Positions 36,231-38,005 of a DNA stretch of 64,000 nt are shown here, one piece after another; the stretch's first letter is position 1, and the number at the start of each line of letters is the position of its first letter. Source of the stretch: a bacterium (lineage in GTDB: Bacteria > Planctomycetota > Planctomycetia > Kolteriales > Kolteriaceae); NCBI GenBank assembly GCA_019753235.1, contig JAIELF010000037.1, forward strand, positions 62,001 through 126,000. The letters are read 5' to 3'. The position numbers were made by a program, and so were the translations under genes. The notes under the pieces were generated by a model, which saw only the letters and a list, made by a program, of their open reading frames with translations, made no database searches and was not told the origin of the DNA.

Positions 36231-36692
36231 TTAGCCCGCTCGACGATGGGTCGACGGGGCGGCTTCGTAGTCGAAATCCCCTTCGAGATCGTCATAGGTC
36301 GGGCGATAGCCAGGCAGCTTCGACTTCTCGACCTCTTTGTAGTACGCCTCGACGATGATGTTCTGAACCCGTTCTCGGCATCCCGAGTTGATCGGGTGCG
36401 CGATGTCCGCGTGCAGCTTGGCTCGGCCATCAACGTCGCGGGTGGCTCGCTCTTCATCGAAACGGGCGCCGCACTGGTTGCAGTACCGGGCTCGTAGATG
36501 ATTCTTGTAGCCGCAATGGGGGCAGCGATCCGTCAGCTTTCGACTCGGCATCGCCACGAATAGGCCCTTGGTTCCCCCAATGATTTTAAGGTCCCGAACA
36601 ACGAATGAGTTATCAAACGTGATGCTGCAGAACGCGTGCAGCCTTTCGTTGTTCTCTTCGACCAGCTTGATTCGGACTTCGGTAACTTCCAC
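36231..36692 (-). CDS. spoVG: SpoVG-family protein with an inserted zinc ribbon
   Basis: A 153-residue protein. It begins like SpoVG ([11 protein letters not shown]..., [34 protein letters not shown]) and ends like it ([22 protein letters not shown]). Between these halves sits an insertion of about 35 residues holding a CX2CX10CX2C zinc ribbon (Cys57, 60, 71, 74). Classical SpoVG is about 90-100 residues without it. SpoVG proteins bind DNA or RNA and affect division, sporulation or global regulation. The GTG start at 36692 has GGAG six bases upstream. It follows ispE by 100 bases, a gene pair also seen in Firmicutes. The acidic tail ([12 protein letters not shown]) is extra. Confidence 0.92.
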
Positions 36693-36792
36693 TGCCGTCT
36701 CCTTTGGCTCTCCGGTCGGCTGGACTCGTTCTCGGCGGCAAGATGAGCGAGGACAAATTGTCTCTCGTGCATCTTCTCCGGCGAGAACGTTT

Positions 36793-37656
36793 CTAGCCGG
36801 CACTCACGATGTAAACTGTCCCTAACTGGAGTTCCTCGATGCTTCGCCCAAGACTCTTGGCCGAAACCTGATCTTCGCACACGGCGAAGTACGTACTTCC
36901 ACTGCCCGTCATGAGGTGTCCCAAGCAGGGCCAATCGACGGCCCTGCGTTCGAGATCAGCCACGGCAGTCGACAACTGCCGGGACGACTCGATGAGTCGG
37001 TTGTGGAGATGGCGGGCCACCTCCGCGATGTTTCCTTCCGCCAGTGCTCGGGCGATCGGCTCGACAGGAACCCGCTCGGTTCCCGGAACCAGATGCTCGA
37101 AGACCGCTTTCGTGCTGAGCCGTTCACTCGGCGAGATCAGCACCAAGTCGATCGGGCAACCGATCGGCGTTGTTTCGACGACTTCTCCTCGGCCCCGCAC
37201 AATGGCGGCCGGCCCATAAAAGAAGAACGGAACGTCACTGCCGAGTCTCGATCCCAACTCGACGAGTCGCTCGACCGACCAGCCGAGATTCCACCATTGA
37301 TTCAGCCCTAAGAGCGTGGTCGCTGCGTCGCTCGAACCACCTCCCAGTCCGCCGCCAATCGGAATTCGTTTGGTCAGCGCGATTTTGATTCCGTCCTCTC
37401 GTCCTGATTCCTCACGCACCAATCGAACAGCACGTGTCACCAGGTTGTCACTGGTCGGGCCCGCTAACGGATCGTCGCAGACGATTTCCTCGCCGGCGGT
37501 TCGCTCCGAAAAGACCAACGTGTCCCGCAGCGAGATCGTCAACAGAAGCGATTCAAGCTCGTGGTAACCATCAGGTCTTTTGCCCAGGACCTCCAGATGG
37601 AGGTTGATCTTGGCCGGGGCATCGAGAGTCAGACTCCGACGATCGCGAACGGTCAT
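36793..37656 (-). CDS. ispE: 4-diphosphocytidyl-2-C-methyl-D-erythritol kinase
   Basis: A 287-residue GHMP kinase. The N-terminus [23 protein letters not shown] is the IspE signature, [18 protein letters not shown] the ATP loop, and [14 protein letters not shown] the third motif. It phosphorylates CDP-methylerythritol in the MEP isoprenoid pathway. The ATG at 37656 has GGAG eight bases upstream. It lies 100 bases before spoVG on the same strand, so the two probably share a transcript. Confidence 0.96.
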
Positions 37657-38005
37657 CGGCGAAACTCCAGTTGCTTGGCCCCGCTCGATCACGACGAAGG
37701 AAGAGCAGGCTCTTTGCCTCGGCTTTTAGCTCGCGGATCGATTCGTTCCATCGAGGGACCCAAGCGGTGTTCTCTCGATCGAACGGGTCGGGTTAATAGG
37801 GTTGGTTCTCATGGGGGTCAAGACGGTGCTTCAAGGAATCTTCTCGGATTGTCGATGTTACAACACAAAGAGTGATAAGCGGGGAAAGATTCGGTGGGCG
37901 AAGGGATCCACTCCCCCCAGGTTTGCAGCGGGGAGAGAGGATTCGTCATCGGAAAGGGAATTCAAAAGACGAGCCGAAGCCCGACCGACAGAAGCTCGCC
38001 AGAAA
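37657..38005. other. Intergenic region, no gene seen
   Basis: About 350 bases between ispE and the DEAD helicase. A CTCCCC...GGGGAG inverted repeat is visible around 37910-37940, without a T-run. No coding frame of quality. Confidence 0.35.

Follow-up and report, generated by a model that had tools for sequence, protein, structure and literature searches.

We identified a putative Cys4 zinc ribbon inserted into the fold of SpoVG in a planctomycete of the family Kolteriaceae, encoded within the whole 64,000-nucleotide stretch of DNA analysed here (the window). The protein is fairly probably an ordinary chromosomal planctomycete SpoVG in which the ribbon, with a predicted zinc ion, replaces a turn and adds a putative contact to RNA or DNA. 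The insert is ordinary as a trait of its phylum, and modestly new as a zinc ribbon.

The spoVG frame runs from a GTG start at 36692 to a stop at 36231 on the minus strand; a preliminary description of the gene was correct overall, except as regards the strand. Residues 1-118 of the product match PF04026 with 93.5 bits against a curated cut-off of 29.6 (E 8.6e-27). The NCBIfam equivalog for SpoVG, NF009749, stays below threshold (94.3 bits, cut-off 108), and its match is split into two stretches because of the insert. A profile search of the whole source genome found a single SpoVG. The gene and its surroundings are as follows.

36231 to 36692, minus strand: spoVG, 153 aa, GTG start (PF04026, E 8.6e-27)
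36699 to 36705, minus strand: Shine-Dalgarno-like AAAGGAG, six bases 5' of the spoVG GTG (direct sequence reading)
36793 to 37692, minus strand: ispE, directly upstream of spoVG (ORF list)

Of 166 loci, 140 have ispE immediately upstream of spoVG and in the same orientation, with a median gap of 36 nt. In 37 loci ispE is itself preceded by a gene that we call PanC-like from its sequence. Genes downstream of planctomycete spoVG vary among loci. The ispE-spoVG neighbourhood had been likened to that of Firmicutes, and the adjacency of the two genes stands, but the resemblance is a loose one: in Bacillus purR and yabJ lie between ispE and spoVG, and a Listeria record has the order spoVG-spoVG-glmU-prs.

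Within the protein, the two halves of SpoVG are parted by CPHC-X10-CNQC, the insert beginning after MPSRK; the spacing C57-X2-C60-X10-C71-X2-C74 given in the preliminary description was confirmed exactly. The parts of this region are listed below.

36537 to 36542, minus strand: Arg51-Lys52 basic doublet, corresponding to Lys50-Arg51 of S. aureus SpoVG (alignment with 2i9z/2ia9)
36417 to 36536, minus strand: residues 53-92, predicted inserted zinc ribbon with its linkers (family models, alignment, AlphaFold2)
36513 to 36524, minus strand: putative first zinc knuckle, C57-X2-C60 (translation, 82-member alignment)
36492 to 36506, minus strand: K63-N64-H65-L66-R67 signature between the knuckles (comparison of distinct ribbons)
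36471 to 36482, minus strand: putative second zinc knuckle, C71-X2-C74 (translation, 82-member alignment)

The window protein shares the SpoVG fold, the basic doublet, the HPI(N) motif and the C-terminal helix with the SpoVG structures 2ia9 (B. subtilis) and 2i9z (S. epidermidis). In place of the 9-residue turn of the known structures, 45 residues separate MPS from DIAHPI. The ribbon follows the CPxCG...N...A-R-F/Y-C-x-x-CG pattern of DZR and Zn_Ribbon_1, from which it differs in being one ribbon rather than two, in lying inside another domain and in being strongly basic. Its score against DZR (PF12773) is 26.2 bits as a protein (cut-off 27.3) and 28.8 bits in the genome search. All 82 aligned SpoVG members match PF04026, and 79 of them match DZR at E <= 0.01. 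Against the RanBP2-type model PF00641 the window ribbon scores 23.4 bits (cut-off 27). The spacing and Asn of the RanBP2 pattern W-X-C-X2-4-C-X3-N-X6-C-X2-C are present, but the Trp is absent, residue 55 being Asp, and classification as a RanBP2 finger was rejected on the absence of this defining Trp. In the 82-member alignment, whose members had been pre-filtered by cysteine pattern, C57, C60, N64, C71, C74 and G75 are invariant.

AlphaFold2, supplied with 82 natural sequences, returned a model of the SpoVG fold bearing a ribbon that resembles RanBP2/NZF zinc fingers (mean pLDDT 88.4, pTM 0.72, with pLDDT of about 93-96 over residues 51-80). From this model and the four conserved cysteines, we infer that the ribbon binds one zinc ion. 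The earlier view of a true SpoVG fold, and of an orthologue beside ispE, is borne out. The top Foldseek matches were the three known SpoVG structures at E of about 3e-6, with target TM of 0.71-0.87 for 2ia9 and 2i9z. The matches that followed were mostly single zinc fingers, among them Trabid NZF1, Nup153, ssRNA-bound ZRANB2 (3g9y) and archaeal ArnA, with rmsd of about 0.7-1.2 A and target TM of about 0.73-0.89; their E values, 0.75 or worse, are high because the domain is small (27 residues).

The insert itself has been described before. A SpoVG insert of 32-36 aa was noted by Gupta et al. (2012) in each of the 11 species of Planctomycetes sequenced at the time, and nowhere else (PMC3444138, Fig. 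A3); they used it as a phylogenetic marker and made no mention of zinc. Protein, phylum and insert size are the same, and the window gene is a member of this group, so that the claim of a novel insertion in the preliminary description falls. We found no account of the insert as a zinc ribbon in the openly accessible literature, and the new part seems to be its identity as a zinc ribbon beside the nucleic-acid-binding site.

Our own survey extends throughout the phylum. PF04026, a model of 82 positions, lacks the insert, and therefore the search was not biased toward ribbon forms. Matches were found in 233 of 392 Planctomycetota genomes, covering 160 of 267 genera, and all but three of the 233 have an insert-type SpoVG, judged from match length alone where the gene was not read. 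Insert-type matches are about 330-440 nt long, compared with about 240-245 nt for Bacillota SpoVG in plasmid and phage records. In the three remaining genomes (G096, G173 and G346) the sole SpoVG-family match is divergent and falls short of insert length. We translated 212 SpoVG genes from Planctomycetota genomes and planctomycete-like contigs, 208 of them with a complete fold, which represent 195 distinct sequences, and what is said of the cysteines refers to the genes translated. Of the 212, 210 retain all four cysteines, the exceptions being one contig end and one frameshift, and an arrangement so widely kept is not due to chance. The first knuckle varies to C-X1-C in five loci (L070, L079, L099, L107 and L170) and to C-X4-C in L200, in each case with four cysteines. 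Apart from these variants and the two broken genes, no loss or degeneration of the ribbon was seen among the 212. With hundreds of orthologues carrying the insert, a sequencing or frame artefact was rejected, as was an insertion peculiar to the source genome, the trait being phylum-wide and already published. The insert was not found in SpoVG matches spanning the site from phages, plasmids (Bacillota, Fusobacterium) or the PDB.

The possibility of an ordinary ribbonless planctomycete SpoVG was also rejected, since ribbonless forms are divergent second or sole copies. Four that were read are short divergent SpoVG-like proteins (L131:1357-1767, L133:1405-1764, L140:1372-1734 and L141:1474-1770). 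Some of the four adjoin helicase/primase-like or excisionase-like genes, which suggests mobile elements. In addition, some genomes hold a second, diverged ribbon-type SpoVG (L134, L135, L136, L137, L138 and L139); that of L138 keeps all four cysteines but no longer has the basic doublet (MPSLPVSARC). Ribbon-type SpoVG was also found on viral-classed contigs of 38-164 kb (L172:1917-2372, L173:4944-5459 and L174/L175:5001-5459), in L172 near polynucleotide-kinase-like and Clp-N-like genes. No terminase (PF03237) match was found on L172-L175, so their viral label is uncertain. Contigs labelled Bacteroidales or Candidatus Kuenenia that carry ribbon-type planctomycete SpoVG (L080, L083, L088 and L098) are probably mislabelled or contaminated assemblies.

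SpoVG of Listeria, S. aureus and Borrelia binds RNA and/or DNA (PMC4959528, PMC3688583). Mutants of the S. aureus and Borrelia proteins showed that a basic doublet at a strand end is essential for DNA binding, and domain swaps that a six-residue helix stretch sets DNA sequence preference (PMC3688583). The equivalent of this stretch was located as follows.

36369 to 36386, minus strand: residues 103-108 (SGCRER), equivalent of the six-residue helix stretch (alignment with 2i9z/2ia9)

Arg51 and Lys52 are conserved at 98% and 96%. In the alignment the ribbon is inserted between the doublet and the helix stretch, C57 lying five residues after the doublet; this position, beside the equivalent of the DNA-contact doublet, agrees with the earlier suggestion that the loop sits near the nucleic-acid-binding side.

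To see whether the ribbon face is distinctive, we set 166 distinct SpoVG ribbons against 62 equally spaced ribbons encoded at zinc-ribbon loci elsewhere in the phylum. The SpoVG ribbons have K63 in 97%, N64 in 99%, H65 in 77%, L66 in 83%, R67 in 86% and N72 in 87%, whereas the others have no such preference, their commonest residues at these positions being E, V, P, A, D and P. Mean net charge between the knuckles is +2.65 in SpoVG and -0.02 in the other ribbons (rank test, p 7e-26, uncorrected for kinship). The second finger of ZRANB2, in which R19 and N24 contact RNA (PMC6384913), shares the C-X2-C-X3-N-X6-C-X2-C spacing and the invariant N64; when the two are matched by spacing, R67 and N72 coincide with R19 and N24. 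The planctomycete ribbon differs in that it lacks the Trp preceding the first Cys, has His in place of the stacking Trp and Ala in place of R20, and does not keep D4. Charge, signature and the correspondence with R19 and N24 support a candidate nucleic-acid contact, its specificity unproven.

On the explanation that we favour, a single Cys4 ribbon of DZR/RanBP2 type would have taken the place of the short turn that leads from the doublet-bearing strand end to the DIAHPIN segment, probably once, in the ancestor of Planctomycetota. The ribbon would hold one zinc ion, and K63, R67 and neighbouring basic residues may provide a second contact with RNA or DNA; the target would then be gripped by the ribbon as well as by the ancestral groove of SpoVG. 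Against such a contact, ribbons of the NZF/RanBP2 and DZR types are protein binders as well. The ribbon might accordingly be a docking module for a protein (RNA polymerase, the ribosome or a SpoVG oligomer, for example) that does not touch nucleic acid. This we consider unlikely, yet worth keeping in view: the closest structural matches of the ribbon are ubiquitin- and Ran-binding fingers, S. aureus SpoVG behaves as a tetramer (PMC3688583), and many planctomycete SpoVGs have at their C-terminus a conserved F-x-x-G-[IL] peptide resembling a docking motif, but the conserved surface of the ribbon is basic (K63, R67 and R77) and lies beside the equivalent of the DNA-contact doublet. An F-x-x-G-[ILVM] ending (such as FGAGIL or FGSGL) after a long low-complexity tail is present in 86 of 136 planctomycete SpoVGs (L034, L046 and L035 among them) and absent from the window protein. 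As a general planctomycete C-terminal tag the peptide was rejected, a strict DNA pattern for it turning up only sporadically across 19 genomes of the class.

It is distinctly improbable that the ribbon only staples a long loop and stabilises the fold, with no partner of its own. As in a structural metal site, the four cysteines, N64 and G75 are its most constant part; the retention of K63, H65, L66 and R67 in SpoVG ribbons, and not in the comparison ribbons, exceeds structural need and counts against this. Cys4 sites can shed zinc upon oxidation, but a zinc or redox sensor switching SpoVG binding is very improbable here, the spacing being that of ordinary tight structural ribbons and specific support being absent.

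A more ambitious proposal, which we regard as speculative and improbable, sees in the ribbon the bacterial equivalent of RNA-reading fingers of the RanBP2 type. It would recognise a short RNA motif, single-stranded and probably rich in guanine, and would turn planctomycete SpoVG into a sequence-specific post-transcriptional regulator throughout the phylum, one whose two RNA-binding surfaces are linked.

How SpoVG, a widespread regulator, recognises its targets is only partly understood, and gene regulation in Planctomycetota has been little studied. A phylum-wide basic ribbon beside the nucleic-acid groove is a natural experiment on how SpoVG reads RNA and DNA, and its reading as a zinc ribbon would give biochemical sense to an indel that has hitherto served only as a taxonomic marker.
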